Part shown: positions 16,443-64,000 of the stretch, in pieces | How the letters are laid out: the number at the start of each line of letters is the position of its first letter | How positions within the stretch are numbered: the first letter of the stretch is position 1 | Assembly (NCBI GenBank): GCA_017656385.1 | Contig: JACDNX010000003.1 | Span: 124,001 to 188,000, forward strand | Reading direction: 5' to 3' | From: Thermodesulfobacterium sp. | GTDB lineage: Bacteria; Desulfobacterota; Thermodesulfobacteria; Thermodesulfobacteriales; Thermodesulfobacteriaceae | Length of the DNA stretch: 64,000 nucleotides | Notes under the pieces: generated by a model | What the model was told of the DNA's origin: nothing | The model's database searches: none | Seen by the model: the letters and a program-made list of their open reading frames with translations, nothing else | Translations under genes and position numbers: made by a program

Positions 16443-16947
16443 TTTTTGCAGAGTTACGGCAGTGATATTTTTTATAGCAGCGCTGCTTTTTTATGCCGGT
16501 GAAAGCATTTCGGAGGAAAGTGAGCTGCGGGAAAATTACAGGTCAGGAATAAGGAAGTGTTTTATTGAGGCTGCAAAAACTTACAGGGTAAGTGTCTGGT
16601 TACTCTGGGGCATAGCAAAGGTTGAGAGCAACTTCAATCCCCGTGCTGTTCGCAAAAATAGAAATGGGAGTTATGACGTTGGTCTCATGCAGATAAATAC
16701 AGTGTGGCTCCCGGTTTTAAGAAAATACGGAATAACCTTACAAGATCTATTTGATCCATGCGTGAACGTGAAGGTGGGAGCTTGGATACTGGCACAGTGC
16801 ATAAGGGATTATGGATACACCTGGAGGGCAGTGGGTTGTTATCATTCAAGGAACGTAAAGAGAGGAATGAGGTATGCAGGCAGAGTAAGAAAGGTGATAG
16901 CAATGGAAATGAAAAGAAAGGAGATGAAAGCAGGTGGAAAACTTTAG
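16429..16947 (+). CDS. Conjugation-associated lytic transglycosylase
   Basis: Periplasmic muramidase-like enzyme that opens peptidoglycan for assembly of the transfer apparatus (VirB1/IagB type). An N-terminal membrane/signal segment (VIFFIAALLFYAG) is followed by the SLT domain: catalytic Glu in KVESNFNP (about residue 67), GLMQIN (about 86) and VGAWILAQ. Length 172 aa is normal for this subfamily. It overlaps both neighbours slightly, inside the transfer operon. Confidence 0.9.
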   Translation: MNFCNFCRVTAVIFFIAALLFYAGESISEESELRENYRSGIRKCFIEAAKTYRVSVWLLWGIAKVESNFNPRAVRKNRNGSYDVGLMQINTVWLPVLRKYGITLQDLFDPCVNVKVGAWILAQCIRDYGYTWRAVGCYHSRNVKRGMRYAGRVRKVIAMEMKRKEMKAGGKL

Positions 16948-17716
16948 TTTTATTGAATACTTTCTGCAGAAGCACGGATGCCTTGTTTTTCAGCCTATTT
17001 ATTTTTCAAGCAGTGCTTCTCAAAATGGGCTTAGACTTTACGGGATGGAGGTTTTAACGAGATTTAGCACAAATGTTAATTTACCTGATTTTTTCAGTAT
17101 GTTACATGAAGAACCGTTAAAATTCTTTGGTTTTTACAGGTGGCAGTGTGAAAACCTGTTAAAAGTGAAGGAATATTTCTTATCAACAGGGATAAAGCTT
17201 TTCATCAATTTTTTTCCTCGTGCCTTGCTTTACGTTCCCGTTTACAGGTTTTTAGAAAGGCTTGAAAAGGAGTTTAACGAAAAAATTGTAATTGAAATCA
17301 CGGAAGCAGGGTTTTCGGCAGGCAGTGATTTTTTGGTGCAATTTCTCAAGGATTTAAAAAGGGAATTCAAAAACACAAAAATTTTCATAGACGATTTCGG
17401 TTCAGGGGAAACGGGAGCTTTCTATCAATTCATTTGTGAGGATGTAGTTGATGGAATTAAGCTTGATAAGAGGTATCTTGATTTGATGCTGAAGGGTAAT
17501 AAAAAAGCCCGGGTGATAGTGGAGCATACGGTTAGCATGGCAAGAAGAATTGGTCTGGAGGTTTGCATGGAAGGAATTGAGAACAGGGAGGGTTATGAGA
17601 TAACCAGAATGCTTGGAATTTCTTTACTGCAGGGTTTTTATCTGGGAAAACCTGAAAGGTTTCAAAGGGAGAAGTTTTTAAAAGCTCTTAGAGTTTCGGA
17701 GGTTGAGGAGGCATGA
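16934..17716 (+). CDS. EAL-domain c-di-GMP phosphodiesterase
   Basis: Stand-alone EAL domain (260 aa) that should linearise cyclic di-GMP. The conserved residues are visible: Glu39 in YGMEVLTRF, Asn in FINFFP, Glu in IVIEITE, the Asp pair in FIDDFGSG, Lys in GIKLDKRYL, Glu in CMEGIE and Gln in LLQGFYLGKP. It is therefore likely active rather than degenerate. GTG start overlapping the transglycosylase by 14 nt; the OmpA gene overlaps its end by 4 nt. Being embedded in the transfer operon suggests it alters host c-di-GMP (motility or biofilm) when transfer is on; this is inference. Confidence 0.88.
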   Translation: MENFSFIEYFLQKHGCLVFQPIYFSSSASQNGLRLYGMEVLTRFSTNVNLPDFFSMLHEEPLKFFGFYRWQCENLLKVKEYFLSTGIKLFINFFPRALLYVPVYRFLERLEKEFNEKIVIEITEAGFSAGSDFLVQFLKDLKREFKNTKIFIDDFGSGETGAFYQFICEDVVDGIKLDKRYLDLMLKGNKKARVIVEHTVSMARRIGLEVCMEGIENREGYEITRMLGISLLQGFYLGKPERFQREKFLKALRVSEVEEA

Positions 17717-48045: not shown

Positions 48046-48098
48046 GAACGAGTTAGCAGAAATTCCACAGGCCGCCTTAACCTTAGAAGGTGAAGAAA

Positions 48099-49967: not shown

Positions 49968-49990
49968 AATGGTGGTAATAAAAATGATCG

Positions 49991-50124
49991 GCAGCGTGCG
50001 GAACTCTTCGCCTGCTATCGCAAACTTGACCTTCTGGTCTGCTAATAGGTAGATATGTGGGCTCGCCTTCGGCTACGTCCAAATTTGCCTTGCGGGCAAA
50101 CTTCACATATCTTCAGAATGTTAG
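49991..50124 (-). repeat. Multi-hairpin structured repeat, copy B
   Basis: Inverted relative of 9985-10117. On the minus strand: outer stem AGATATGTG/CACATATCT (50104-50112 / 50051-50059), arm TTTGCC...GGCAAA, arm ending GCC-GAA-GGC, then GACC-AGAA-GGTC, TGC-GATA-GCA and GCG...CGC around AGAGTT. Outer stems and joining segments (AATTTGG, AAGTTTGC, CATTCTGAAGA vs CATTCCGG) are conserved; arms differ but still pair. It lies between the DUF262 gene and the restriction enzyme. Confidence 0.6.
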
Positions 50125-50172
50125 TTACAATTAGCGGGTCCGCACTCAAGAATAATAAAAAGAGGTGGAATT

Positions 50173-51228
50173 ATGAAAAATTGGATAATAAATCAGCTTG
50201 AAAGAATATGGTCAGAAAACAAGGCAAAGGGGATACTATCGCAAGTTAAATTTGTAGAAGATTTAAAAAAAGAAACCCTTGGGAAAAATATTAAAAAATA
50301 TTATAATGGTTGTTGGATTTTTGCTCCAAAAACTCCCGATTATTTTAAACATAGATTTTTATTTTTTATACACCCGAAAATTAAAGCACAACCATTCGAT
50401 AAAAATGAGATTGAACCTGCTGAAATAATGAAAGAAGCTGATGCAATTAAATTCAAACGAATTGCAGGATTTTTGAATAACGCCGGCATGGGAGTAGTTT
50501 ATAGCATACCTCTAGGTGAGAATATCAAAAACATCTCATGGCAGTTATTTCGATTTGATTTTAATAGAGAATCATTAATATCTTTGGATGCTGATGATTT
50601 TTTCAGAAACTGGGGGAACAGAGGAAGACCTTCGCATTCAAGAGGATGGACCGAAGATACAAAAAAACAATACCAGATGCTTGAAGATGATGTTTTAATT
50701 TCACTATTTCTAAATGAACATTTTTATACAGAATACCTCAAAAGAGAAAAACATATACCGGTCTCGGATCCTTATGATGTCGATGGTTTTTTTATAATAT
50801 ATTCATCTGGCAGAGTCATCCCTATTGAGATAAAAGAAAAATTTCCTGCCGGTGTAAACGATGATCGCTTTTTCGGTATAGATGCAGGGAGAGTACTGAT
50901 GCTTTTGCGAATTTGTTTACCAAACGATGCAAATGCTTTGTATATAATACGGGAAGTGGACGATTCATCCGAAAGAAATTTCTTAGGATGGAAATATATT
51001 ACTCTTTCAGATATCATTATGTCCTCTGGATGGAACTTGCAGAGAGGAGGCAGAGGTATGGGCGGGCAAGAAACACAAACGATAAGGCTTCCGTATTATC
51101 AGTTCAAAAATTTAGATGGAAGTGTTTTAAGAGATATCTCGCTCGATAAAATTGGAAAATTACCGGATGAAATTAAAAAAGCGGTAAAAGATTTCATTTC
51201 TGAAAGAAAAAATTTTTTCGGGTGGTAA
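50173..51228 (+). CDS. Putative type II restriction endonuclease (PD-(D/E)XK)
   Basis: 351 aa, no overall family recognised, but residues about 199-221 read DPYDVDGFF ... VIPIEIKEK, a PD-(D/E)XK active site with Asp204, Glu219 and Lys221. It lies 2 nt before a C5 cytosine methyltransferase and is followed by a mismatch glycosylase, so it is most likely the nuclease of this R-M system. GAGGTGG site upstream. The recognition sequence cannot be read from sequence. Confidence 0.75.
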   Translation: MKNWIINQLERIWSENKAKGILSQVKFVEDLKKETLGKNIKKYYNGCWIFAPKTPDYFKHRFLFFIHPKIKAQPFDKNEIEPAEIMKEADAIKFKRIAGFLNNAGMGVVYSIPLGENIKNISWQLFRFDFNRESLISLDADDFFRNWGNRGRPSHSRGWTEDTKKQYQMLEDDVLISLFLNEHFYTEYLKREKHIPVSDPYDVDGFFIIYSSGRVIPIEIKEKFPAGVNDDRFFGIDAGRVLMLLRICLPNDANALYIIREVDDSSERNFLGWKYITLSDIIMSSGWNLQRGGRGMGGQETQTIRLPYYQFKNLDGSVLRDISLDKIGKLPDEIKKAVKDFISERKNFFGW

Positions 51229-51230
51229 TT

Positions 51231-52454
51231 ATGACAGAAAAATATACTGTTATTGATTTTTTTGGCGCACCCGGTGGACTTTCTTTTGGCTTTGAAATGG
51301 CAGGATTCAAAAGTATTGGCGCACTTGATATTTTTAAAGCAGGTATGGAAACATATCAATTTAACTTTCCTGATTCTAAAATTCTGATTGAAGATATTAA
51401 AAAAGTTTCTGTTCAAGATTTAAAAAAAGAATTTGGAATCAGTAAAGAAAATATAGACATTGTGATTGGAGGTCCTCCCTGTCAGGGATTTTCCACAATA
51501 GGCCGGGTAAAAATAGCTTCTCTTGCAAGAAATGGCACCTGGAAATTAAACAACCATCATCCACGCTTTATCGATGATCCCCGAAATGAACTTTATAAAG
51601 AATTTATCAGAATGGTTAAGGGCCTTAAGCCCAAAATTGTAGTGATGGAAAATGTTCCCGGAATGATGAGTTATAGAAACGGAGAAATTGTACGTGAAAT
51701 TATAGAAGATTTTAATAGTATTGGATATACAGCTCAAGCCAGAATACTCAATGCGGTGGAATATGGCGTTCCTCAATTACGTAAAAGGATATTCTTTATT
51801 GCTGTAAGAAAAGACCTCAAAATTAAAATACTGTGGCCTGAACCGACTCATACTTATTCTAATTCTAATAGCATGTCTTCTATAGGACCTCTTTTTAAAA
51901 AAAAGAAATTAAAACCCGCCGTTACAGTATGGGAAGCTATCGGAGATCTACCTTCTCCAGTCCCCGGGAAACCTAAACTTGCAGATGTAGCTTTAAATTA
52001 TGATAAAGAACCCTTCAGTGAATATCAAAAATGGGCCAGACAGGGTTCTAAAGAAGTACATAACCATATAACCAGACAGCATAATGAACGCGATATAAAG
52101 GTTTTCTCACTCATGAAGGAAGGGGAAAAATGGAAAGATTTACCTGAGGAAATAAGAAAAAGTTACGGTTACAGAGATGATATTTTCAACGACAAGTTTA
52201 AGAAACTAAAACGGGATGAACCATCTTGGACGGTTGTTGCCCATCTTTACAAGGATGGATATATGTATATTCATCCTGTGGAGGCAAGGACTATAACTGT
52301 TAGAGAAGCTGCAAGATTACAGAGTTTCCCGGATACTTTCATTTTCAAAGGTTCAAGAACTGATCAGTTTAAACAGGTTGGAAATGCAGTTCCGCCTTTG
52401 CTTGCAAAGGCGGTGGCTCTGTGTGTGAAGAAAATGCTTGAAAACATAAAATGA
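51231..52454 (+). CDS. DNA (cytosine-5-)-methyltransferase
   Basis: C5 cytosine methyltransferase that protects host sites from the adjacent nuclease. Motif I FGAPGG (residues 11-16), motif IV GGPPCQGFS with catalytic Cys84, motif VI MENVPG, motif VIII QLRKRIFFI, motif IX REAARLQSFPD and motif X QVGNAVPP are all present and in order. 407 aa. Its stop overlaps the glycosylase ATG by 4 nt (ATGA). Confidence 0.95.
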   Translation: MTEKYTVIDFFGAPGGLSFGFEMAGFKSIGALDIFKAGMETYQFNFPDSKILIEDIKKVSVQDLKKEFGISKENIDIVIGGPPCQGFSTIGRVKIASLARNGTWKLNNHHPRFIDDPRNELYKEFIRMVKGLKPKIVVMENVPGMMSYRNGEIVREIIEDFNSIGYTAQARILNAVEYGVPQLRKRIFFIAVRKDLKIKILWPEPTHTYSNSNSMSSIGPLFKKKKLKPAVTVWEAIGDLPSPVPGKPKLADVALNYDKEPFSEYQKWARQGSKEVHNHITRQHNERDIKVFSLMKEGEKWKDLPEEIRKSYGYRDDIFNDKFKKLKRDEPSWTVVAHLYKDGYMYIHPVEARTITVREAARLQSFPDTFIFKGSRTDQFKQVGNAVPPLLAKAVALCVKKMLENIK

Positions 52455-53098
52455 ACACAGATATTTTCCTTTATATTCAGAACAACCTATGCAGATTTTA
52501 CGAAAAAGAAGGCAGAGATTTTCCATGGAGACATACTTCCGATCCTTATGCAGTGATGATAGCAGAGTTTATGTTACAGCGAACCAGAGCAGAACAGGTT
52601 GTCCCGGTATATAAAAAATTTATGAAAAAATACCCTGATATAAACTCCCTTTCACGAGCTTCTCTGTCCGAAATAAGAGAAATTCTTTATTCACTGGGAC
52701 TACACTGGCGAGCCCATCATTTTTTGGAATCTGCCAGATATATTATTAATCATTTCAAAGGAAAATTCCCTGCAGAAAGAGAAGAACTTTTAAAAATCCC
52801 CGGAGTGGGGGACTATGTTGCCGGAGCAATATTAGTGGTCGCGTATAAAAAAAGAGAATATGTTGTTGATAGCAATATAGCAAGATTCTTGAATAGATTT
52901 TTTGATTTGCGGTTGTCGGGAGAAATAAGGAGGAATTCTGTTATCAAAAAGCTGGCTAAAAATCTTTTTCGTCATCAAGATCCAGAAAAGATACTATTTT
53001 CGGTATTAGATTTTACAGCGGCTATATGTATTCCTCAAAAACCGCAATGTAAATCTTGTTTTTTAAAAAACAAGTGCGAATATTTCAAATTAAATTAG
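52451..53098 (+). CDS. HhH-GPD T/G mismatch DNA glycosylase (Mig.Mth-like)
   Basis: 215-aa endonuclease III/MutY superfamily glycosylase. N-terminal RDFPWRHTSDPYAVMIAEFML is close to the pattern of Mig.Mth, the thymine-DNA glycosylase encoded beside the MthTI R-M system of Methanothermobacter. HhH IPGVGDYVAGAI (116-127) with Tyr122 at the position of the EndoIII catalytic Lys, Asp140 (YVVDSN), and a C-terminal [4Fe-4S] set C193, C200, C203, C209. It would repair T/G mismatches made by deamination of 5-methylcytosine, a heavy burden at high temperature. Translationally coupled to the methyltransferase. Confidence 0.85.
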   Translation: MNTDIFLYIQNNLCRFYEKEGRDFPWRHTSDPYAVMIAEFMLQRTRAEQVVPVYKKFMKKYPDINSLSRASLSEIREILYSLGLHWRAHHFLESARYIINHFKGKFPAEREELLKIPGVGDYVAGAILVVAYKKREYVVDSNIARFLNRFFDLRLSGEIRRNSVIKKLAKNLFRHQDPEKILFSVLDFTAAICIPQKPQCKSCFLKNKCEYFKLN

Positions 53099-53292
53099 AG
53101 TAAATCTTTTATAAATGTATAAATACCAAAAAGCTCCCAACTTTCAAATTTTCGGCTTTAAAAAAGTTCAAAATGTGTTTTTTTCTAAGATTTAGTGGAA
53201 TATAATCTTTTTCTGCCTGATTTTCCGTTGATACCTCCTGTATAAAATGTACACCTGACAACTTTTTTATCCTTTTTCATCTTCATAAATTT

Positions 53293-53388
53293 TTACACCT
53301 CTTCAGCAAGGTTTATCTTGTCTTTTTCAAAATAGTCTAACCATATGGAACTATCTGTTATTACCATATATGCTCTTATTTTTTCCAT
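53293..53388 (-). pseudogene. VapC-like PIN toxin N-terminal fragment
   Basis: A minus-strand frame reads MEKIRAYMVITDSSIWLDYF then EKDKINLAEEV and stops. MVITDSSIWLDYFEKDK is the first strand, metal-binding Asp and first helix of a PIN-domain ribonuclease. Only 31 codons remain; about 100 residues are missing. No antitoxin gene is seen. It overlaps the end of the membrane-protein gene at 53376 by 13 nt. Confidence 0.45.
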
Positions 53389-53870
53389 ATGAGCGGTATT
53401 AAAAGAGAAACTAAAGCATAAAAAAAAAGAAAAATATATGGAATTGCGAGAATGAAAGGAATATATTTCTCAACCCTTGTAAGTTGCAAATACTTACTTT
53501 TTTCTTTTCCCTCTCCTAATAATTCCCATTCTTTATCATAGCAAGGGAACGGTAAATATTGCTCCATTTCATGTATAACTTTAAATTTTCCTGAATTAAG
53601 CTGTTTATAAGATCGTATGTTTATGTGCCATAAAATACATAGAGCTATGCCTAATAAGGATACAATGATAAATATTACAGTTTGATTGAATTTACCCACA
53701 CTTACTAATATTGAGAGTAAAGCAAGTAAGCCTGATAACAAAGAAATGTAAAATTTATTTGTCTGCATTCTCCTTTCGCTTATCCTATCAGCCATTTCTA
53801 CATATAACTTGTATTGTTCTAACAAGTGTTCGTTAAATTTTTCTCCATATTTGTTTTTATCCACACTCAT
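53376..53870 (-). CDS. RipA-like membrane protein (partner of TIR gene)
   Basis: 164 aa with a polar N-terminus (about 1-40), two helices (about 42-84), a soluble loop with FKVIHEMEQYLPFPCYDKEWELLG, and a C-terminal hydrophobic hairpin (about 128-160). The layout resembles the RipA family of octameric membrane proteins that are often paired with MTH538-type TIR proteins. ATG 53870 overlaps the TIR stop (ATGA), so the two are translated together. It could be a membrane-permeabilising effector; this is inference. Confidence 0.65.
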   Translation of the reverse strand: MSVDKNKYGEKFNEHLLEQYKLYVEMADRISERRMQTNKFYISLLSGLLALLSILVSVGKFNQTVIFIIVSLLGIALCILWHINIRSYKQLNSGKFKVIHEMEQYLPFPCYDKEWELLGEGKEKSKYLQLTRVEKYIPFILAIPYIFLFFYALVSLLIPLIWKK

Positions 53871-54286
53871 ATAGCCAGTCTCCTTATAGCTGACACAATT
53901 GAATTTGTATTCCATCCCACTATTTCGTCTGCATTTTCAGCAACAAATTGAGAAATTCTTGTTTGGGCCCAAGGTTTTATTGCTATTACAGGTTTTGGTG
54001 TTTTAAATTCTGTCTTTGCTATTTTAATCTCTTTTTTAATCCATGCGCTATATGTTGCGTATACACCGGCCATTACCAAAATTACATGGCAGGGAGCCAT
54101 TTGTTTTTTTATAGCTTCATAAAGAGCTTGAGAATTTGGAGCATTATGAATTGGGTCATCTTTGGGAACTGAGTAATCCTTGAAATAAAAATAAGGAGCT
54201 TTTTCCAGAAGGTCCATTAATCTCTCATATGCATAACTATAACTCCAAGAATGACTTAAGAAAATGTTATAAATTTTTATTGGCAT
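53867..54286 (-). CDS. MTH538/ThsB-like TIR-domain protein
   Basis: 139 aa covering just one TIR-like domain: IYNIFLSHSWSYS (strand A and loop), YFYFKDYSVPKDDP, CHVILVMAGVYATYSAWIKKEI (strand D and helix), KPVIAIKPWA and ADEIVGWNTNSIVSAIRR. This is the TIR_like (MTH538) family that includes Thoeris ThsB, which makes a cyclic ADP-ribose signal from NAD+. AAGGAGG site. Followed without gap by a membrane protein, giving a sensor/effector-like pair. Confidence 0.8.
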   Translation of the reverse strand: MPIKIYNIFLSHSWSYSYAYERLMDLLEKAPYFYFKDYSVPKDDPIHNAPNSQALYEAIKKQMAPCHVILVMAGVYATYSAWIKKEIKIAKTEFKTPKPVIAIKPWAQTRISQFVAENADEIVGWNTNSIVSAIRRLAI

Positions 54287-54569
54287 TTTAAACCTCCTTT
54301 TTAAAAATAATAGTTCACTTTTTCTGTTTTTCTTTTTACATGCTTTTTCAAGTAATATTGATGTTCTATTTTTACGGTCTACAATTTTAAATAATTTTTA
54401 TTCTACAGTAAAATTAATTTCTTTTCAAAAATATACTAAAAAATAAATAAAAATTAAAAATGATAGGTGTTATTATTAAGTTATTAAAAAATTTGTTTAA
54501 ACTAAAAGTTTTTAATTGAAATAAAAGTTGAAATAAAAAAAAATTAATTAAAAAGGAGAAAACTAAAAT
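54287..54569. other. AT-rich gap, no gene
   Basis: About 280 bases of A/T-rich sequence upstream of the TIR gene. No ORF, repeat or hairpin stands out. The promoter of the TIR operon must be here. Confidence 0.4.
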
Positions 54570-54600
54570 AAAAAAACCGGACGGGAAGCTCCCATCCGGT
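54570..54600 (-). terminator. Rho-independent terminator (minus strand)
   Basis: On the minus strand a 10-bp stem ACCGGATGGG / CCCGTCCGGT (one G-U) with a short loop is followed by seven T. It ends the transcript of the small gene at 54634 and the amidoligase module. Confidence 0.85.
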
Positions 54601-54633
54601 ACAAAAGTTTCTTAAAACCTTTTTGTTTTTATT

Positions 54634-54987
54634 CTAACCACTTACCTTTAAAAGAAATTTTTGTTCAAAGTTTATTATTTTTGCTTTAAGTATTTGTAAA
54701 GCTGTTTCATAATCATTAAAAAGCTCACAATATCTAAACTGCTCCCTTTTTTCATCTGGTAAAGTCAGGGTAATATCTACTAAATATTTTTTACCCTGAT
54801 AGGAAACTATTTCCGCATAAAGTCCATCTGTAAGATGCGGATATGTTTTATTTTTAACTGGATAATAATAAATTGCATACTCAAAACCTCCAAAATACTG
54901 AATGTTTTTCTGTAAAATCAAAGTTTTTGGATATTTAAAAGCTATATATCTTGTTGGATATTCTGTTGTTAACATAGTTTTAATCAT
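54634..54987 (-). CDS. Small hypothetical protein of the amidoligase module
   Basis: 117 aa, Tyr-rich (about 13 Tyr), predicted mixed beta/alpha, no motif recognised. GAGGAGG site. It lies 92 nt after the glutamine amidotransferase stop and just before a strong terminator, so it probably belongs to the same transcript. It could be a substrate or accessory protein of the amidoligase; no evidence beyond position. Confidence 0.55.
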   Translation of the reverse strand: MIKTMLTTEYPTRYIAFKYPKTLILQKNIQYFGGFEYAIYYYPVKNKTYPHLTDGLYAEIVSYQGKKYLVDITLTLPDEKREQFRYCELFNDYETALQILKAKIINFEQKFLLKVSG

Positions 54988-55079
54988 TTTTTACCTCCTC
55001 TTTCAAGATTTTATAGTCTTGGGTTTTTCATTTGAAGTATGCCCATAAATTTTAAATCTGTATTTATCGACAATTTTTC

Positions 55080-56198
55080 CTACATCTGAACACTCTGCAT
55101 GTAAGAATATGCTCCAGCTTTCATATCTCCCGCAGGTATAAATTTATTTTTAAAATCCTTTAATGCCTGCTTGAGCTTCCTTCTTTTCCTGTAAAGCTCT
55201 TTTAACCTTTCCTTTGCCTCCTCAACCGCATAAACATGTTCAGGATCATCAGAAAATTCACTCTCCATTATGTTCAGGTATTCCTTAATATCTCTAATCT
55301 CCTCTTCCACGTACTCCAGTTCTTCTTTCAATCCATAATATTCATCTTCGTACCCGTCCCACTCGCAATACCCATTCCAGATGTATGGCATGTAGTAATC
55401 GCTGTAAACCGGCTCCCTGAGCTTTAAATCTTTAACTTTCTTTACCTCTCCATCACCATCAATCACGTAAAGCCTGTAAGGCAGTGGCTCAAAATGAGAA
55501 ACCTCTTTCAAGTCCTCTCCTGCAATTTCACATGCTTTCTTGAACATCTCCTCCGTAGAAACGATAAACCTTCCCAAACCTTTACCCCTTAAGTCACAAA
55601 CCCATAGAGGTCTGTCCGCACTTCTCACAAAGTAAATTTTTTCGTCCCAATACATTATCAAAGCCCAGCTTCCACTCACGTCTTTCAAAACCTCTTCAAC
55701 AACTTCCTCTACCGCTTTGTCCTGTCTTAAAAGCTTGGCTATGCAGGCAAAAAGCAAGAAACTGTCAACTTCATACCACTTTGGATTTTTGATATTAAGA
55801 CTTAACGCTTTCTTTACCAGGTCTTCGTAGTTAATCACTCCATTGTGAACCCCGGCAAATATCTTTCCTTTTACCCGAAACATGAACGGATGAGAATTGC
55901 CATCACTTATCTCTCCCTTCGTTGCATATCTCACATGTCCTATCACTATCTTCGCATCATCAAGCATCCAGTTTATCCTTTCTTCCTCTTGAACCAGAAA
56001 CTTCAAGGCATTAATCCCTCTTTTCAGAAGATATACTTTTTCCCCTTCTTTTCTTGCTTTGACAGTTAACAACCCGGTTCCATCAGGATTGCTGCCAGCT
56101 TCCGCTAACAGCAGTCCCTTAATTAACTTATTAACTTTTTTTGCTTCAGCTACTTTTAATTTTCTTCCTCCTCCATGCCACGCTAAAACTCTACACAT
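55080..56198 (-). CDS. Class II glutamine amidotransferase (Ntn) protein
   Basis: 372 aa. The protein begins MCRVLAWHGG, so Cys2 becomes the N-terminal nucleophile after Met removal; this fixes the start at 56198 (AAAGGAGG upstream), not 56240. Other GATase II marks: GHVRYATKGE (87-96), NSHPF (101-105), HNGVINYEDL (118-127). The C-terminal third is a charged helical stretch (about 280-355), probably coiled coil. It should release ammonia from glutamine for a partner. The amidoligase gene 95 nt upstream is the obvious partner. Confidence 0.85.
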   Translation of the reverse strand: MCRVLAWHGGGRKLKVAEAKKVNKLIKGLLLAEAGSNPDGTGLLTVKARKEGEKVYLLKRGINALKFLVQEEERINWMLDDAKIVIGHVRYATKGEISDGNSHPFMFRVKGKIFAGVHNGVINYEDLVKKALSLNIKNPKWYEVDSFLLFACIAKLLRQDKAVEEVVEEVLKDVSGSWALIMYWDEKIYFVRSADRPLWVCDLRGKGLGRFIVSTEEMFKKACEIAGEDLKEVSHFEPLPYRLYVIDGDGEVKKVKDLKLREPVYSDYYMPYIWNGYCEWDGYEDEYYGLKEELEYVEEEIRDIKEYLNIMESEFSDDPEHVYAVEEAKERLKELYRKRRKLKQALKDFKNKFIPAGDMKAGAYSYMQSVQM

Positions 56199-56246
56199 AT
56201 TTACACCTCCTTTTAAATTTTTTTCTTTTTTGACTTTCAAAATTTG

Positions 56247-56281
56247 AAAACGGCAGAGAGAAAAGCTCTCCCTGCCGTTTT
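56247..56281. terminator. Hairpin between amidoligase and amidotransferase genes
   Basis: A 10-bp stem AAAACGGCAG / CTGCCGTTTT with an inner AGAG/CTCT pairing. It can act on either strand but the T-runs are short (TTTT), so read-through from the amidoligase gene into the amidotransferase gene is plausible. Confidence 0.6.
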
Positions 56282-56292
56282 ACTTTGGAAAA

Positions 56293-57720
56293 TTAAGCTC
56301 CTACTGCCATTTCAGATTCAACTTCACTGAATTCGCTTTCTTCAAAGAACCTTTCAATTTTTGACCATCTGCTGCTGCCTTCTATTCCAAAAAGACCGAG
56401 AACTATCAAAACATTGTGCAAACCTTCAGAATGTATGCACTTCCTTTCCTGTCTAAATTTTCTGCAACTGCAAATGATTTCTCCGTCTTTGACTTCCATC
56501 CTGACGAAGTTAGAAGAACTTTTCAAAGGAAATTCTACTTTCAGACTTTCTTCATCAAATCTGAACTTTATCTTTTCTGAAATTCTGAGAGCATATCCGA
56601 AAGAAAGTCTTTCTTTTTCTGACAGGTCCGCATTTCCAAGATAATCTTTAATAAGACATGAATAACTGTTAGAAGTAAGAATTCCAGCAACTGCCTCTTG
56701 AAGAGCTTCCTTGATTTTTTTATAAATCTTTTCTTTCTTCAATAAACCATCTGAATCTGCTAATTCAACGAAGTTATTGAACCTCTGAACGGCAAATTCT
56801 CTTACTTCTTTCAGAACAGGATGAGAACCTCTAACTCCGATAAAGTCAAGAAAATCCTCTATGGTTAAATAATCTCTGTCAACACTTTCAAGCAGGTTCC
56901 AGATGGTTCTGTGCTTTGCAGTTTCAGTTAAGCACAAAGAAATAATCACGTGCATCTTTGCCTTCTTAACATTCGTAGTTCCTGGCCAGAACCTGAATTC
57001 CACGTGCTTATTTCTAAATCCACTGAGATTTAAGCAAAGATACCTGTCAAGAACATAACCTTCAAAATTAGAAAAGTTCTGTTTAAAATGATAAGGTTCA
57101 AGAACTCTGCAGTAATGGTTTCCACGCCTGCTTGGAGGAACCAGAAACTTTATCAAGTCCCAGAGACAATACATAAGCATCTGCAGGTTAAAAGCATTCA
57201 CAAGATTGTAGTCATAAATATCCACATGAACGTGTCCTCCGCAGGTTCTGTTTACCCCCGATTCAAATCCGTGTTCATTAAGCTCTTCGTTCCAGATTCT
57301 CAAAACTCTTTCAACTTCCGCAAATCCAAACTTCTCCCCCATTCCAATTAACTGAGGAGAAGTTATTTCAACAGAATTCAAACCACTTACATTAACACTG
57401 CTATCCGTTCCAACTTTCCATCTTGGAGTAATCGTGTGATCGTATCCAGTCCTGTAAGCAGGAGCTCCATTTTCATTAAGCTTTGCAGCAAATTCATCTC
57501 TTGAAGAATAAATTCCACCTTCAAATTCAATTCCATACTTCCTTAGAGGAATCCAGCAAGGACTTTTCTCTTTTGTTAAAATCCTGAAAAGCTCTTTAAC
57601 TGAAATTCCCTGATAATAACAAAATTGATTAATTCTGAATCTTTTTTCTTCGTAACTCCCTCTTACTTCAAGTCCAATTTTCTTTAAAATTGCATCCTGC
57701 ATGTTTATTGTTCTTCTCAT
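56293..57720 (-). CDS. Amidoligase (GS/ATP-grasp-like COOH-NH2 ligase) with C-terminal SWIM finger
   Basis: 475 aa. The amidoligase_2 pattern is visible: YGIEFEG (62-68), WKVGTDSSV (101-109), EITSP (118-122), CGGHVHVDI (160-168), HVEFRFWPGT (239-248). These proteins join an amine to a carboxylate with ATP, with peptides or proteins as supposed substrates. The C-terminus carries a SWIM zinc finger (C417, C419, C428, H430), normally DNA- or protein-binding, an uncommon fusion. ATG 57720 has AAGGAGG 7 nt upstream. Next to a glutamine amidotransferase and another SWIM protein. Confidence 0.82.
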   Translation of the reverse strand: MRRTINMQDAILKKIGLEVRGSYEEKRFRINQFCYYQGISVKELFRILTKEKSPCWIPLRKYGIEFEGGIYSSRDEFAAKLNENGAPAYRTGYDHTITPRWKVGTDSSVNVSGLNSVEITSPQLIGMGEKFGFAEVERVLRIWNEELNEHGFESGVNRTCGGHVHVDIYDYNLVNAFNLQMLMYCLWDLIKFLVPPSRRGNHYCRVLEPYHFKQNFSNFEGYVLDRYLCLNLSGFRNKHVEFRFWPGTTNVKKAKMHVIISLCLTETAKHRTIWNLLESVDRDYLTIEDFLDFIGVRGSHPVLKEVREFAVQRFNNFVELADSDGLLKKEKIYKKIKEALQEAVAGILTSNSYSCLIKDYLGNADLSEKERLSFGYALRISEKIKFRFDEESLKVEFPLKSSSNFVRMEVKDGEIICSCRKFRQERKCIHSEGLHNVLIVLGLFGIEGSSRWSKIERFFEESEFSEVESEMAVGA

Positions 57721-57761
57721 CCTCACACCTCCTTTTCAATTTTTTGATTTTTTTCAAAATG

Positions 57762-57800
57762 AAAAAAGCCCTGAAAAGAGGAATACCCCCTTTTCAGGGC
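57762..57800 (-). terminator. Rho-independent terminator (minus strand)
   Basis: Perfect 11-bp stem GCCCTGAAAAG / CTTTTCAGGGC with an 11-nt loop, followed on the minus strand by six T. It separates the small SWIM gene from the amidoligase gene. Confidence 0.85.
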
Positions 57801-57901
57801 CTGTTTTCAAAAATTTTAAAATTCAGAAGCTTTTAGATTTTTTCGGGTTCTTTGATTTTTTTGATTTTTTAAGTTTTGAGATTTTTGGAATTTTCACTGA
57901 C

Positions 57902-58183
57902 TTACATTAATGCTCTTACGTGCTTGCAAAATCCACGCTTTAAAAAGCCGGGACAATTGCATACGAGATACCCTGACTGCGTTCTGTAAACCGTCCACAC
58001 TCCATAACCGATTTGGCTGTCTGACTGCATATCAAGAAAGTTGTCAAGTTCTACTTCAGGAGCTTTCCCTCCTCTAATTTTGGTTAAAAGAGTTCCGCAG
58101 TCAGGACAGCAATATTCAACCTCCCGTGCTTCTTCTTCACGATAAATTCGTGAACAACTCTCACACTTGTAAAGTCTTCTCAT
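57902..58183 (-). CDS. Small zinc-ribbon plus SWIM-domain protein
   Basis: 93 aa with two metal sites: a zinc-ribbon-like set at the N-terminus (C7, C10, then C26 and C29 in YCCPDCG) and a C-terminal SWIM finger CNCPGFLKRGFCKH (C75, C77, C86, H88). AAGGAGG site. The SWIM finger matches in type the one fused to the amidoligase downstream, which suggests both are guided to the same partner or nucleic acid. Confidence 0.75.
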   Translation of the reverse strand: MRRLYKCESCSRIYREEEAREVEYCCPDCGTLLTKIRGGKAPEVELDNFLDMQSDSQIGYGVWTVYRTQSGYLVCNCPGFLKRGFCKHVRALM

Positions 58184-58601
58184 GCTGCACCTCCTTTCTA
58201 ATTTTTTCTGCTTTTTGGTTTTTGGCTTTTAAAACACTGCAGGGATTTTTAAAATTTTGAGAATTTTGAAGAACTTTTGGGAACTTTTGAAAATTTTTTG
58301 AGATTTTTTTGAAACTTTTAGAACTTCGGAACTTTTTGATTTTTGTTTGATTTGTTTAATTTCTGTTTTGACTTGCCTGTTTGATGAGGTTTGTTTGATT
58401 TTTTGGTTTGGTTTTTAATTTGCGACTTTTTATTGATTTATTTCATCAGGGCTTCAATTAGCCCTGCTAACCCCTAAAAAGGATCTCCCGCAGGAAGCGG
58501 GAGCGAAAAAATAATATCTTAAAAAGTTTGATTTCCTTTTTGCACTTTTTTAAGTTTATAATAACACATCTTGCTTTTTAAGTCAAGAAAAGTAACATTT
58601 T
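58184..58601. promoter_or_regulatory. 418-base low-complexity intergenic region
   Basis: Between two minus-strand genes. From 58250 to 58440 it is a run of near-repeats of TTTTGA / GAACTTTTGG / TTTGATTT on the plus strand (A-rich on minus). Then two hairpins: AGGGCT...AGCCCT (58448-58465) and CTCCCGC-AGGAA-GCGGGAG (58485-58503), the latter followed on the minus strand by GATCC and five T, so a likely terminator of the upstream operon. The rest may hold the SWIM gene promoter. Confidence 0.5.
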
Positions 58602-59024
58602 TTAAGCTTCATTTTCCTTTTTCTCATTTTCAAGCTCTGATAAGGCCATTTCCTCTATAAGATCCGCCTTTCTCTCGTTCTTGAATTCCTCAATTCCCTG
58701 CTTTGTTTCCTCATCAAGAGGCTCTTCAAGTCCTCTCGGAACTCTGTAAGGAATTCCCGTGAACCTGCAAAGCTCACCGGCTGCCTCGTTCAGCTTCTGA
58801 ACAGCTTCATTATACTTCTTCAAAAGCGGTAAAACCTTTTCCGGATCAAACCTGATAAGAAGATTTCTTCTGAGATAGTTAATCGCTCTGTCTGCCTGCC
58901 TTGCAATGTCAAGAACTATGTGAGTATCATTGGTTCTTACAAGCATCACCCTCGTATTTCTTTCCTTTGCAAGATTAATCTTTCTCTGAACCCTTGGATC
59001 TTCAACCTGCACCTGATCTGCCAT
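58602..59024 (-). CDS. Hypothetical helical protein
   Basis: 140 aa from ATG 59024 (AAAGGAGG upstream). Predicted all-helical and charged: AKERNTRVMLVRTNDTHIVLDIARQADRAINYL, a middle with KKYNEAVQKLNEAAGELC, and a Glu/Lys-rich tail. No family recognised. Last gene of the minus-strand transfer operon that starts beyond the right edge. Confidence 0.6.
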   Translation of the reverse strand: MADQVQVEDPRVQRKINLAKERNTRVMLVRTNDTHIVLDIARQADRAINYLRRNLLIRFDPEKVLPLLKKYNEAVQKLNEAAGELCRFTGIPYRVPRGLEEPLDEETKQGIEEFKNERKADLIEEMALSELENEKKENEA

Positions 59025-59076
59025 CTTCAACACCTCCTTTCTCCTGTTTTTTTAATTTAAAATACAGGCGAAGTAA

Positions 59077-59781
59077 CTACAGCTCCTGCTCAACGTCTTT
59101 CTCGACACTTTGCTTCCTCTTATGGTAAAGAATGGAAGCCACAGGAATGGCTATAAAAAGGACAGAAGTAAAGAGAATGAAATAAGCAGAAGGTATAAAA
59201 ACCTCCCTGAACTCTATCAACCATGCATAAACTCTATAATAAAGCTCTCCTGAAATTTTTAACTTATGAAGTGCCCTGCCTGTGTTTTCAGGAGTGAAAA
59301 TGAAAAAATAAATGAAATGAAAACCCAGGAAAACTATCACTGTCTTAAATATCGTGCCCGAAAATAACCCTGTAAGAAAGTTTTTCATGGCTATTCTCGT
59401 AATCCTGTTGCTGTAATAATGCTTTCCTAGGCTTGCTATCAAAAGGGCATATCCTATTGAAAAACCAAGTGCAAGCATGAACGCAAAAACCCTGTCAAAT
59501 AGAGTGGGAGGATAATCTCCAAACACGGGTATGAGCTTTTGTATCACTCCCATTGCAATGGGAGTAAATAATGCAGTGACAAGCCCTGATATAAAAGCGT
59601 CCCTGAAACCTACCTCAAAAAACTCCCACTTCTGCTTAAAGGTGAAAAAGCTCTCAGGAACCTCTTTATCTCCCAGAACAGCACTATACTGTTCCAGCTC
59701 CGATATAGCATCAATTATGCTCTTCGGCTTTTCATACTGGCTTCCAAATACAACCACGTTACCGCCTCTATCCTCTGCCAT
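59077..59781 (-). CDS. Polytopic membrane protein of the transfer operon
   Basis: 234 aa. A soluble N-terminus of about 55 residues is followed by five hydrophobic segments (about 60-85, 95-115, 130-150, 155-170 and 195-220). No family recognised. It is 13 nt from the small membrane-protein gene upstream and may act with it. Confidence 0.65.
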   Translation of the reverse strand: MAEDRGGNVVVFGSQYEKPKSIIDAISELEQYSAVLGDKEVPESFFTFKQKWEFFEVGFRDAFISGLVTALFTPIAMGVIQKLIPVFGDYPPTLFDRVFAFMLALGFSIGYALLIASLGKHYYSNRITRIAMKNFLTGLFSGTIFKTVIVFLGFHFIYFFIFTPENTGRALHKLKISGELYYRVYAWLIEFREVFIPSAYFILFTSVLFIAIPVASILYHKRKQSVEKDVEQEL

Positions 59782-59794
59782 AAACAGCCCCTCC

Positions 59795-60055
59795 TTACAG
59801 AGAACTGAAAAGTTTCAGGAGAAATTTATACACTCCTCCTCCATAAGCAAGCACAAAAGAAAGAAGATAAAAAATAACCGCAGTTCTCAATCTCTGCCTT
59901 CTTATCGCAAACCACAAACCTATGATAAAAAGAGACAGGGCAAGCAGTTTACCCCAGAAACCACAAAACACCGTTTGAAAAAGCCTTAACCAGAAATCCG
60001 CATACTCTTCACGGGACATGTAGCGTAAAGGGTTGAAAAAGTTAATCAGGTCCAT
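59795..60055 (-). CDS. Small membrane protein
   Basis: 86 aa with two hydrophobic stretches (about 27-48 and 55-78) and a basic turn. It starts 3 nt after the nuclease gene stop. Unknown function. Confidence 0.6.
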   Translation of the reverse strand: MDLINFFNPLRYMSREEYADFWLRLFQTVFCGFWGKLLALSLFIIGLWFAIRRQRLRTAVIFYLLSFVLAYGGGVYKFLLKLFSSL

Positions 60056-60058
60056 CTC

Positions 60059-60847
60059 TTAACTCTCCTCATACCTTCCATAATATTTATCATCTTTCCG
60101 CACGTAATCACTTACGTCTGCCTCCCCCAAGCAAAGAGGAAGAAAATCGCACCAGTTGCAGTGCAGTCCTGGATTTTTGTAAAACTCTCCTCTCTCTATG
60201 TCCCTCCAGACCTTCCTGACTATCCTCTCAAAATTCTCAAAATCCTCTTTTGTTCTCTGCCTTCCCCATACGTATTCAATTTCGGGTTCTTTTTTCTTTA
60301 TGAAAACTCCAAATCCTACCTTTTGAGGAGTTTTTTCAAGCACGTTCGCAAGGATGTAACTGTAGGCAGTGAGCTGAAGATCATAATGGGCTTTGGCAGG
60401 ATTGTATCTGCAGGATGAGGTTTTCCAGTCAATTAAAAGGTTTCCGTTTTCTCCTACGAAGTCAATTGTGGCATAGAAAGGAATACCACATATTTCTATC
60501 TTTTCGTTTCTCTCCACCGAAAAATATTCTTTCGGTGTCTCTTCATGACTAACCCATTTAGCCAGTGTTGCCTTGCCTGCTTTGAGAAGTTCCTCTCCTG
60601 TTTCTCCTTCTCTGTATTCAATCTCCTCTTTACTGTTTAAACAGGCATCTATCCAGAAAACCTCAAAAGTATCAGACGGATTCACTCCTGATTTATAAAA
60701 ACCTTCAATTCCAAAGTGAATTCCCGTTCCCCAGAGAAGAACGGCTTTCAGTCCCGGCTTTTTAAGTTTTTCTATGTGAGAAAGCCTGCCCTTCTCAGGG
60801 CAGGTGAGAAAGTCTTTTATGATTGAATACGTAAGATACCTCAACAT
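60059..60847 (-). CDS. RecB/Cas4-like PD-(D/E)XK nuclease
   Basis: 262 aa. Opening LTYSIIKDFLTCPEKGRLSHI with a first Cys, GIHFGIEGFY (His of motif I), ATIDFVGENGNLLIDWKTS (Asp, then Asp-x-Lys), QLTAYSYILA, and a C-terminal cluster CNWCDFLPLC. This is the Cas4/AddB-type layout with one N-terminal and three C-terminal Cys for a [4Fe-4S] cluster. Likely processes DNA ends for the element. Inside the minus-strand transfer operon, so not a CRISPR Cas4. Confidence 0.85.
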   Translation of the reverse strand: MLRYLTYSIIKDFLTCPEKGRLSHIEKLKKPGLKAVLLWGTGIHFGIEGFYKSGVNPSDTFEVFWIDACLNSKEEIEYREGETGEELLKAGKATLAKWVSHEETPKEYFSVERNEKIEICGIPFYATIDFVGENGNLLIDWKTSSCRYNPAKAHYDLQLTAYSYILANVLEKTPQKVGFGVFIKKKEPEIEYVWGRQRTKEDFENFERIVRKVWRDIERGEFYKNPGLHCNWCDFLPLCLGEADVSDYVRKDDKYYGRYEES

Positions 60848-60859
60848 TTTTCCACTCCT

Positions 60860-61561
60860 TTACTTTACTTTTACTTCTTCTGCATAAATTCTGCCTTCAC
60901 TCTTTGAAACAAGAGCTTTAACCTGCTTTCCTTTTTCAATCTTTCCCTGAATTTTCGTGGTTTCTTTGAGATTCACCCAGGAGTTATTTACCTTAAATGC
61001 CTGTCCACTTCTTGCAACTGCCTGAATTTCTCCCTTTATTTCCTCCGTCTCAAAAGGATCTTCCTTACTTTCCTGTGTTTCTTCTGTTTCCTGTGCTTCC
61101 TGTGTTTCTTCTGCTTCCTCTCTTTCTTCTCCGATAAATTCCCACCAGGAAGCGGTTCTGCTTAAAAACTTCAGTAAGTCTGCGGCATACAGAAACCTTC
61201 CCTCATCAAAGGATACGTTAATTCTTTCCTGTCCTCTTACAATTATGAGAGAAAAGCCCGATTTTCCTTTTCTCTCCCATTTCTCACAGATAAGCCTTGA
61301 AGAAACTTCCTCTCCGCCGGGAGCAGTAAAACTGTGATAAAGAGAAAAACTCTCATCTCCGTTTTTCACCACTTTTTCCATATTGCAGCCGAGAACAAAT
61401 GCCTCATCAGGATCAAGCATGAAAATGAGATTTTTCTTACTTCCATCGGTTGTAAAAAACCTCAGCCTCACCTTTCCCTCTTTTGTATCCTTGATAGTCT
61501 TTTCATACTCTCTAATTTCTACTCCTGTGCTTCTGTTGAAAAACGTGTATCCCCTTATCAT
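60860..61561 (-). CDS. Hypothetical protein with acidic linker (possible DNA-binding)
   Basis: 233 aa in three parts: a beta-rich N-terminal domain (about 1-140; VRLRFFTTDG, LIFMLDPDEAFVLG, FSLYHSFTAPGG), an acidic linker of EETQEAQ-type repeats (about 148-172), and a C-terminal beta domain (GEIQAVARSGQAFKVNNSWVNL ... KALVSKSEGRIYAEEV) with OB-fold character. The N-terminal style resembles whirly/PC4-like ssDNA-binding proteins found beside transfer genes, but this is a guess. Adjacent to a Cas4-like nuclease. Confidence 0.55.
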   Translation of the reverse strand: MIRGYTFFNRSTGVEIREYEKTIKDTKEGKVRLRFFTTDGSKKNLIFMLDPDEAFVLGCNMEKVVKNGDESFSLYHSFTAPGGEEVSSRLICEKWERKGKSGFSLIIVRGQERINVSFDEGRFLYAADLLKFLSRTASWWEFIGEEREEAEETQEAQETEETQESKEDPFETEEIKGEIQAVARSGQAFKVNNSWVNLKETTKIQGKIEKGKQVKALVSKSEGRIYAEEVKVK

Positions 61562-61590
61562 TGCCCCCTCCTTTTACTGCTTTTAACTTT

Positions 61591-61740
61591 TTAAAACTCT
61601 CCTTTTTCTTTTGCTCTGTATCTCTTTTTGCTGCCATATCTTTTTCTTCTTCTCTCCTTTTCCTGATGATACCTGATGTATTCCTCCCATTGTCTGATTG
61701 CTTCCCAATCAATCACGGTTGCGATTTTCTTTAATTTCAT
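61591..61740 (-). CDS. Very small basic protein
   Basis: 49 aa with an excellent AAAGGAGGAGG site. Sequence begins MKLKKIATVIDWEAIRQWEEY and continues into a strongly basic tail (KERRRKRYGSKKRYRAKEKG). Probably nucleic-acid-binding. Sits between the HD-domain gene and the acidic-linker gene. Confidence 0.65.
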   Translation of the reverse strand: MKLKKIATVIDWEAIRQWEEYIRYHQEKERRRKRYGSKKRYRAKEKGEF

Positions 61741-61809
61741 TCTCTACCTCCTCCTTTGCTTTAATTTTTTACCTCTTTTTAAAGAAAAATAGGGAAAAGG
61801 TAACGGTAG

Positions 61810-63297
61810 TTAAGAGTAGGCAGGTTCAACCTTCGTGATTTTTTTGAGAATTTCTCCCTTCTGATTTTCAAGCTCAGAAGGTAAAACTCCGAATGCCTCA
61901 GCCTTAAAAGGAGTGTAAAGCACTCTTGTGGGGCTTTCTTCATCTTCTCTGTAAACAAGAAATGGAGCGGCAAAGTATCCTTCCTGAATAAGTCCATCTG
62001 CTATGCAGCCTTCCTTTCGCAGGGCATTGATTAAGCTCACGAGAATGCTTCTTTTCAGGGTCCTGTCCCCCTCACAGGTAACAACCTCAGGGACTTTTTC
62101 CTTCAGGGCAAGCCTTTTCAGGACAGCCCACAGCCCCGCAGGATGAACGTACACAACTCCGTCAGGCATGGAAAAGGCAATCCACTTACCTCCAGTAACC
62201 TGATTTATTTCCTTCTTCAATTCCTGCAAAAACTCGTCAACCTTTAACCAGCTCAGGTCATAATCGTAGACCACTTTTTCTTCTGTGCTTTCCTCTGAAG
62301 TGTCCTGATAGAAGGTGGATACAGAAACCCTCTTTTCTTCCTCTCTCCTGACAGGTTCTTTTTCTTTTTTCAGGTTTTTTTCTCTTATTTTTTCTTTCAC
62401 TTCTTCCTTTGTTTCTATCTCTTCACTTTTGTTTTCTGTTTCCTTGAGTTTTATCTTTTCAAACACTGCCTGTTCTTTTTTCTGCAGCATTTCTGTGATC
62501 TCTTTTCTTCTTGCCTTTCTATCTGCCTGCTTGAGAAGTTCCAGAAGCTTTCCCCTGCCTGCTCTGTGATGGTTTGCAACAGCCTGCCTTACTTCCTCTG
62601 CAAAGGGGAGCTCCCTGAAACCATGAATATTTTCTAAAATCATTACACTGATTAAAGGGTGATCCCCGAGAGTGTAAAACTCCGAAAAGTATTTAGGAAT
62701 TTTCCCCAGGTCGTGAGAAAGACATGCAAGGACAAGCTGAGGCTCTAATATTCCTGAAACTCCTGAATTCATTCCTTCTTCTGCCACGTTAATGGAATGT
62801 TTAAGCAGTGAAACACGGGACAGCAGAGTATAAGTATTTTCATCAAGGTCATAGGTCTCACGTTTAGCTCTAACAACAGAGGGGACATCTCCCTCCTCAT
62901 CAAGTATTTTCAGGACCTCAAGAATGACACTTTTAATCCTTCCTTTAAACCAGGTCCTGCCTCTCAGGTAGCGTACGTAAAACTCAAGAAGTAAGTCGTG
63001 CCTGAAGTTAATTCCCTCTTCAGGTTTACCGCTGTCAGTCTCCTCATAAGTTCTCCAGAGCTTTGCAAGCTGATCTATGTAAACCTCAATCTTTGCTCTC
63101 TCCTGCCACAGAGCATTGAGTTTTTCAAGCTCAATCACCAAAACGTCTTTACTTCCTTCAGTGTTCCCCAAAGAACTCAGAGGATTTTTCTTCTTTTTCA
63201 CACGGTCCCTGAAAAATAGGTAAATGAGAATAGAACCGGAAACAAAAGCAGAAATTCCAAAAAGCAGATCCGGACTTAATTGGTTCAAATTAATCAT
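61810..63297 (-). CDS. Membrane-anchored HD-domain protein, possible MobH-like relaxase
   Basis: 495 aa: one N-terminal membrane helix (about 11-29), an HD metal-binding domain (His167 in LLKHSIN, H195-D196 in LSHDLGKI, His213 in GDHP, H243-H244 in ANHH, Asp in QADR), a charged middle (about 265-335), and a C-terminal domain (WIAFSMPDGVVYVHPAGLWAVL) resembling the TraI_2 C-terminal winged part. MobH relaxases (TraI of SXT/R391) combine an HD-type relaxase domain with such a C-terminus and lie beside traD. Here it overlaps traD by 8 nt. A simple HD phosphohydrolase is the alternative. Confidence 0.6.
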   Translation of the reverse strand: MINLNQLSPDLLFGISAFVSGSILIYLFFRDRVKKKKNPLSSLGNTEGSKDVLVIELEKLNALWQERAKIEVYIDQLAKLWRTYEETDSGKPEEGINFRHDLLLEFYVRYLRGRTWFKGRIKSVILEVLKILDEEGDVPSVVRAKRETYDLDENTYTLLSRVSLLKHSINVAEEGMNSGVSGILEPQLVLACLSHDLGKIPKYFSEFYTLGDHPLISVMILENIHGFRELPFAEEVRQAVANHHRAGRGKLLELLKQADRKARRKEITEMLQKKEQAVFEKIKLKETENKSEEIETKEEVKEKIREKNLKKEKEPVRREEEKRVSVSTFYQDTSEESTEEKVVYDYDLSWLKVDEFLQELKKEINQVTGGKWIAFSMPDGVVYVHPAGLWAVLKRLALKEKVPEVVTCEGDRTLKRSILVSLINALRKEGCIADGLIQEGYFAAPFLVYREDEESPTRVLYTPFKAEAFGVLPSELENQKGEILKKITKVEPAYS

Positions 63298-64000
63298 TTT
63301 CCTTTTTTGCCTCCGGAAATTTTATTACCACACGGGCAGGATTAACGTCTATCGTTTTTCCGTAAAACCTTCCGTGATAGCTCATCATGTAAAACTTTCG
63401 CGGCTGCAGGTTTAACATGTCCTCAACACGCACTATGTCCTCCTCAACTTCCCTTGAAGTAATCCCTCCTCCGAAGGAAAGCATCGGAGAAACTTTTTTC
63501 ACTCTGCCGAAATGCTTGCTTACGTACCTTGCAGTCTCCGCATCTGGCACTCTCATGAAAAGCTTCGTGTTAGTGTTGTCAAGAATTGAGTTTCCAAAGT
63601 CCTTACCAATTGCCGCATATATCTGATTAACCGATTGACTGAAACCGTGAACCCACACTCCTGCTCCTCCTGCCTTGGCAAAGAGATCCTCAATTCCCAG
63701 GTAGAGGAGGTTTTGTGCCTCATCTATGTAAACACACAGCGGAGGATTGACTTTCTTTCCTGAACTGAAAACCCTCCCCACGAATGTCTGTATCATTGAA
63801 ATGATCACCTTTCCAAGAGTATATGCCGCTTGTTGTGTGAGAAGGCTACCAAGCTGGGCTACAAGAATCACTCTTTCTCCATTCTCAAGCCTTTTGATAA
63901 ACCTGTTTTCGTCTGCCTTCCCAATGATTTTTCCTATATGTCCACTTGTAAGCTCCATCAATGCTACTCTTAAGCTTGAAGAAACTTTTGAATAATAGTC
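63290..64000 (-). CDS. traD: TraD/TraG-type coupling protein, C-terminal part (runs off the right edge)
   Basis: VirD4-family ATPase that brings the relaxosome to the channel. The frame stays open to base 64000, so the 5' part, including Walker A, lies outside. Visible: LILVAQLGSLL-type strand, Walker B PPLCVYIDEAQNLLY, the sensor region GVWVHGFSQSVNQI, and NTKLFMRVPDAETARYVSKHFG. The downstream HD-domain gene overlaps its stop. Confidence 0.88.
   Translation of the reverse strand, partial: DYYSKVSSSLRVALMELTSGHIGKIIGKADENRFIKRLENGERVILVAQLGSLLTQQAAYTLGKVIISMIQTFVGRVFSSGKKVNPPLCVYIDEAQNLLYLGIEDLFAKAGGAGVWVHGFSQSVNQIYAAIGKDFGNSILDNTNTKLFMRVPDAETARYVSKHFGRVKKVSPMLSFGGGITSREVEEDIVRVEDMLNLQPRKFYMMSYHGRFYGKTIDVNPARVVIKFPEAKKEND

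Follow-up and report, generated by a model that had tools for sequence, protein, structure and literature searches.

We analyzed a 64,000-nucleotide stretch of a Thermodesulfobacterium sp. contig (JACDNX010000003.1, positions 124,001 to 188,000), referred to here as the window, in which three adjacent minus-strand genes encode a small zinc-ribbon/SWIM protein, an amidoligase that carries a second SWIM finger and a class II glutamine amidotransferase (GATase). They lie within what is, by its gene content, an F-type conjugative element and, judged by comparison with relatives, they are a split variant of a conserved cassette in which a one-chain ligase and a GATase are followed by a GNAT acetyltransferase, which the window copy lacks. 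All three open reading frames (ORFs) are open and each has a ribosome-binding site. A preliminary description of this DNA had recognized the three genes, and their positions and intact catalytic residues stand, but two start codons are revised. The GATase begins at ATG 56198 (MCRVLAW) rather than at TTG 56240 and the amidoligase most likely at ATG 57720, just 3′ of AAAGGAGG, rather than at GTG 57726.

The 477-codon ORF matches the Amidoligase_2 family (PF12224) with an E-value of 5.5e-14 and 53.1 bits, against a curated Pfam cut-off of 22. Residues E67, E69, D108, E120, H165, H167, R200, E243 and R245 of the ligase motifs are kept and are invariant among twelve relatives, and no ATP-site residue has been lost. 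Structures were modeled with AlphaFold as single chains. For the ligase model (predicted local distance difference test 72, a moderate confidence; core good, tails poor), the PDB fold matches at E <= 0.001 are exclusively ligases of the glutamine synthetase (GS) fold; PafA is the best match, and YbdK, its homologue 1tt4 and glutamine synthetase III are also among the top five. Sequence and model together predict that the product is an ATP-dependent GS-fold COOH-NH2 ligase. Its SWIM finger, of the form CxCx(n)CxH like that of the 93-amino-acid protein, was not matched in the Pfam scan, and patterns of the CSCRKFRQERKCIH type arise in 0.23% of composition-preserving shuffles. The corresponding value for the CNCPGFLKRGFCKH type in the 93-amino-acid protein is 0.76%, and the Pfam SWIM score of this protein, 8.2e-4, is slightly under the cut-off.

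The GATase matches Pfam GATase_6 (E 4.3e-11) over the curated cut-off. The N-terminal Cys (C2) and the glutamine-binding residues R90, T93, H103, N119, G120 and D145 are kept and invariant. There is no synthase domain; a helical coiled coil extends from about residue 280 on. Glutaminase domains of the GlmS and PurF type come first among the PDB folds matched by the GATase model (1jxa, 4.9e-13; 1gph, 4.1e-12).

Table 1. Positions in the window of the cassette genes, their motifs and the flanking element genes (position 1 is the first letter of the window)
Feature	Positions	Strand	Remarks
Zinc ribbon (C7, C10, C26, C29) and SWIM finger (C75, C77, C86, H88) protein, 93 amino acids	57902..58183	minus	
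SWIM finger 1	57920..57961	minus	CNCPGFLKRGFCKH, residues 75-88 of the 93-amino-acid protein
Terminator-like hairpin (strong)	57762..57806	minus	Between small SWIM and amidoligase genes; coding is continuous here in relatives
Amidoligase_2 (GS-fold COOH-NH2 ligase) with C-terminal SWIM finger	56293..57720	minus	
SWIM finger 2	56431..56472	minus	CSCRKFRQERKCIH, residues 419-432 of the 477-codon ORF
Terminator-like hairpin	56247..56281	minus	Between amidoligase and GATase genes
Class II (N-terminal nucleophile) glutamine amidotransferase, Cys2 nucleophile	55080..56198	minus	
Tyr-rich orphan, 117 amino acids	54634..54987	minus	At the place of the relatives' GNAT gene
p58602	58602..59033	minus	Conserved element gene, next to the cassette in relatives too
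p59077	59077..59781	minus	Predicted membrane protein, marker of the element family
p59795	59795..60055	minus	Small element protein, conserved
PD-(D/E)XK nuclease (RecB/Cas4-like)	60059..60847	minus	In several relatives, immediately upstream of the fused ligase
p60860	60860..61561	minus	Element protein, conserved
HD-domain protein	61810..63297	minus	Adjoins TraD; function inferred
TraD coupling protein (part)	63290..63961	minus	

Relatives were sought by searching 84,980 species genomes with a profile from an alignment that included phage and plasmid homologues. Such an alignment was required, as scanning viral and genome contigs with single sequences gave no relatives; alignment A1 was too diverse to serve as a query. 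Matches along almost the full ligase, beyond the catalytic domain, occur in metagenome-assembled genomes (MAGs) of Nitrospirae (L144, L146, L147, L148), Syntrophaceae (L142, L143), Nitrospinota (L145), Syntrophales (L189) and Alphaproteobacteria (L154) and in a contig binned as Nitrososphaeria (L141), and whole-genome searches added the cassettes of genomes G420 and G651. In the relatives from the profile search the ligase is one chain (~600 amino acids in the Nitrospirae, Syntrophaceae and Nitrospinota MAGs) with the order zinc ribbon, SWIM, amidoligase, SWIM, except that L189 lacks the zinc ribbon and L146 and L154 are shorter ORFs without the second SWIM finger. The Cys and His ligands of the zinc ribbon and of both SWIM fingers are invariant among the fully fused members. 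The ligase gene is followed by the GATase gene, often within a few bases or overlapping, and this by a gene for a GNAT acetyltransferase of 132-152 amino acids with an intact acetyl-CoA motif. The ligase-GATase order is fixed in every well-covered SWIM-type member but L189 and L154, and a GNAT gene is present in seven of the eight loci with a strong GATase; at the eighth (L148), the contig stops inside the GATase gene. These counts, and those below, are uncorrected for shared ancestry. The homologues do, as the preliminary description supposed, stay together as one module, with the small SWIM part fused to the amidoligase. The preliminary description overlooked that what the small SWIM gene encodes forms, in relatives, the N-terminal part of one fused protein, that GNAT is a regular third member and that the pairing had already been annotated in several phage groups.

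A scan of IMG/VR with the fused proteins gave no relative and the SWIM type was, therefore, not seen in that viral collection. The Nitrososphaeria-binned genome has, in addition to its cassette contig, an F-type contig (G326:C85; L227) with a TraC 51% identical to that of the window; the cassette contig is possibly mis-binned, the other reading being cross-domain spread.

In the window, every module of the fused chain is present but spread over two ORFs, whereas all other full-length members seen are fused. As the 93-amino-acid protein aligns with the N-terminal part of the relatives' ligase and ends right after the first SWIM finger, it and the amidoligase would together correspond to the one protein of the relatives. 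The two genes are 175 bp apart (57727-57901), and this gap and those at 56199-56292 and 58190-58600 are AT-rich, whereas the cassettes of relatives are tightly spaced. The terminator-like hairpins in the window gaps sit upstream of ribosome-binding sites, consistent with possible attenuation. The third gene of the cassette, GNAT, is missing; the sole GNAT match in this genome is weak and lies on a different contig. The ORF found at that place is real but its G+C content is 26.8%, compared with 37-43% for the three cassette genes, and no homologue of its Tyr-rich product was found. For both reasons the 54634 product, previously proposed as a module member or target, was rejected as part of the cassette and probably lies outside it. 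Within the genus of the window, genomes gave no match to the amidoligase or the small SWIM protein, and only a broken GATase, in G012 (C60:1120-1811; L016), the fragments of which share 51-71% identity with the GATase of the window; the contig bears no trace of an amidoligase.

The pairing of an amidoligase with a GATase is already known. Among 160 amidoligase loci taken from viral and genome collections, 24 have a class II GATase immediately downstream on the same strand, and several chromosomal amidoligase loci from the phylum of the window also have this arrangement. The same order occurs in LUZ24-like (UFV-P2, tf, SCYZ1), phiEco32-like (SU7) and Arthrobacter (Laroyevirus) phages and in a spring podovirus (ctOsX528), and is present in published phage annotation (PMC3890496; PMC3517423). 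The LUZ24-like and phiEco32-like cassettes differ from that of the window in having additional genes for an ATP-grasp protein, a gamma-glutamyl cyclotransferase and a second COOH-NH2 ligase, none of which is found among the Pfam-scanned genes of 53376-63961. Unlike the SWIM family, none of the phage cassettes has SWIM fingers or a third gene for GNAT, and the amidoligases share an overall identity of only about 15-30%. Among the amidoligase loci compared, GNAT is seen beside the amidoligase in the SWIM type only. When 41 catalytic domains were placed in a tree, the SWIM type fell on one side of a branch with a Shimodaira-Hasegawa-like approximate likelihood ratio of 94. The window ligase is inside this group on a long branch, which leaves its exact place unsure. 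Chromosomal amidoligases of the Desulfobacterota type, from the phylum of the window, were considered as the same system and rejected, being distant and without SWIM fingers. On these sequence comparisons, the novelty would lie in the double-SWIM architecture and the GNAT partner. No paper on amidoligases with SWIM fingers was found in the open-licence literature, and a zinc-finger-armed pairing with a third, acetyltransferase gene appears to be undescribed.

The conjugative nature of the element, proposed in the preliminary description, is substantiated by genes for TraC, TraN, TraU, TrbC, TraK, TrbI/TraB, TraF, TraH, TraG and TraD. The cassette adjoins the TraD/HD-protein end of the element, and the window and its relatives have, in varying subsets, the flanking genes p59795, p59077, p58602, p60860, the PD-(D/E)XK nuclease, the HD protein and TraD in common; the order of the cassette is conserved next to these genes. 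The HD-domain protein matches a Cas3''-HD model with a score below the cut-off of that model and is perhaps, from its sequence, a divergent MobH-type relaxase. F-type genes on the same contig as the cassette are TraB in G420 (at ~7 kb), TraG in G651 (~13 kb) and TraC in G330 (~20 kb) and G327 (~60 kb). With p59077 as the marker, two sampled groups of 155 and 246 genomes yielded 17 genomes with the element type, of which 5 have a SWIM-type amidoligase; in G331, this amidoligase and the marker are on different contigs. The G400 element has the same gene order without ligase and GATase, and a 91-amino-acid GNAT-like ORF at that place. As only some marker-bearing genomes have a SWIM-type amidoligase, and the G400 element lacks ligase and GATase, the cassette is accessory: it is cargo with a constant position in the element, outside the transfer machinery. 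No Rfam RNA family was found in 53000-62000.

The window encodes further proteins outside the cassette. Overlapping minus-strand genes for a ThsB-like TIR protein and an 8xMP membrane protein (53376-54286) adjoin the cassette and are a probable defence pair. The plus-strand genes at 48090-53098 encode a GmrSD-type protein followed by a 351-amino-acid protein without assignment and, by eye, cytosine-C5 methyltransferase-like and MutY/TDG-like glycosylase proteins; this looks like restriction-modification cargo. Also on the plus strand are genes for a PAPS-reductase-domain protein (13013-13822), 55% conserved in the related element of G330, an EAL-domain protein of the cyclic-di-GMP phosphodiesterase type within the transfer gene cluster (16934-17716) and, on the far side of the element, a SIR2_2-domain protein (5978-7267).

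The best explanation, which we hold tentatively and at somewhat less than an even chance, is that the element-borne cassette consumes glutamine and ATP to turn a carboxylate of a macromolecule, bound by the zinc modules, into an amide. The GATase would free ammonia from glutamine and pass it to the ligase, which would activate the carboxylate with ATP and then amidate it, while the zinc modules would hold the protein or protein-DNA complex that bears this carboxylate. In most relatives, GNAT would acylate an amine, probably of the same product, a step missing from the window copy. Three points favor the ammonia route: the GATase carries no synthase domain, the relatives of known structure nearest to it are glutaminases that produce ammonia, and ammonia is what glutamine synthetase uses. 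An ammonia-supplying GATase, one of two roles offered in the preliminary description, is also the most natural reading of the proximity to GlmS and PurF in both profile and fold searches. A macromolecular target is favored because the zinc modules are fixed on the ligase. MurT-GatD, whose ligase and glutamine amidotransferase are likewise separate and amidate a carboxylate within a larger substrate (PMC3267633), provides a precedent, although as an analogy and not by homology, as MurT-GatD has a Mur-ligase fold, a CobB/CobQ-like GATase and no zinc fingers.

Several points weigh against amidation of a macromolecule. With whole-chain TM-scores of 0.2-0.4, which are low, the model supports the fold of the ligase but not a substrate. 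The SWIM fingers may be structural only, and the GATase could, by analogy with EgtC, hydrolyse gamma-glutamyl amides. L189 and L154 have a ligase without a detected neighbouring GATase and, because hairpins part the genes, co-expression is not assured in the window. The functions suggested in the preliminary description, namely defence, surface exclusion or transfer control, found no backing: PADLOC gave no match for the amidoligase, SWIM protein or GNAT, with one marginal match (0.0084) in the GATase coiled coil, and related elements persist without the cassette. A defence-system label was, therefore, rejected.

The main rival is a small product. In this scheme GNAT, ligase and GATase would make an N-acetylated, amidated peptide-like compound, a stress solute or signal, and the SWIM fingers would be structural or regulatory. 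It ranks as such because the trio resembles the synthesis of N-acetylglutaminylglutamine amide (AsnO/Ngg; PA3459-PA3461), for which one operon provides the same three activities (PMC8070244), and GNAT does follow GATase in SWIM-type loci with enough contig. That pathway, however, has an asparagine-synthetase-like GATase, another type of ligase, a soluble dipeptide product and no SWIM fingers. With a zinc ribbon and two SWIM fingers conserved on the ligase, unexpected for a metabolite enzyme, no GNAT in the window copy and no transporter or peptidase regularly beside the cassette, we judge this scheme rather unlikely, if still a serious contender.

Protein tagging, in which the ligase would make an isopeptide or amino-acid conjugate, as a Pup ligase does, and the GATase-fold enzyme would hydrolyse gamma-glutamyl amides as an eraser or in deprotection, we consider unlikely. 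In the fold search PafA ranks first for the ligase model, but PafA and YbdK, although they share its GS-like fold, are only distantly similar, lack SWIM fingers and have no adjacent GATase. EgtC, a gamma-glutamyl hydrolase, is in the fold-search list of the GATase, ranked lower than GlmS and PurF, but is not listed by the PDB profile search, which gives GlmS and PurF. Gamma-glutamyl cyclotransferase genes often adjoin phage and transposon amidoligases, but Pfam recognizes no Pup-like tag gene in the window region and the 54634 product is not conserved.

It is improbable that the ligase, guided by the zinc modules, makes amides on a modified base of the element DNA and so evades restriction. 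DNA as the target has no direct support here, though a chemical precedent exists in CmoY of phage S-B43, an unrelated ATP-dependent amide ligase that joins glycine to carboxymethylcytosine in phage DNA (PMC12783734). CmoY is, however, an asparagine-synthetase homologue without an amidoligase fold, and its partners CmoA and CmoX are not seen in the window cassette. Phage amidoligase-GATase genes adjoin replication genes and the Tn6164 amidoligase is near S-adenosylmethionine synthetase and DNA methylase genes (PMC3485107), but neither in the window nor in relatives did the surroundings of the cassette yield an enzyme that would carboxylate or carboxymethylate a base, and elements lacking the cassette persist. 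A related long shot is a nucleic-acid-guided amidation machine, whose zinc-ribbon/SWIM modules would attach to the DNA in transfer or to its protein complex while ligase and GATase, with GNAT in relatives, modify bases or bound proteins with amide and acyl groups; conjugative DNA would thus be hypermodified in a way analogous to phage bases. That the window copy is a decaying, functionless remnant of a family itself real, as its split gene, missing GNAT, intergenic hairpins and long branch, the broken GATase in the same genus and the sole GNAT-like ORF of G400 could suggest, is highly improbable, given three open ORFs with ribosome-binding sites and all catalytic and zinc residues kept.

Pairs of an amidoligase and a GATase occur scattered among phages and mobile elements, and the SWIM family adds two clues absent from the phage versions examined: a GNAT partner, and zinc-ribbon/SWIM modules that are fixed on the ligase and suggest a macromolecule as the target. 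The pair is now tied to a defined family of conjugative elements in several phyla and becomes testable, as the set is compact, with three genes, and the G400 element, which lacks ligase and GATase, offers a natural comparison.

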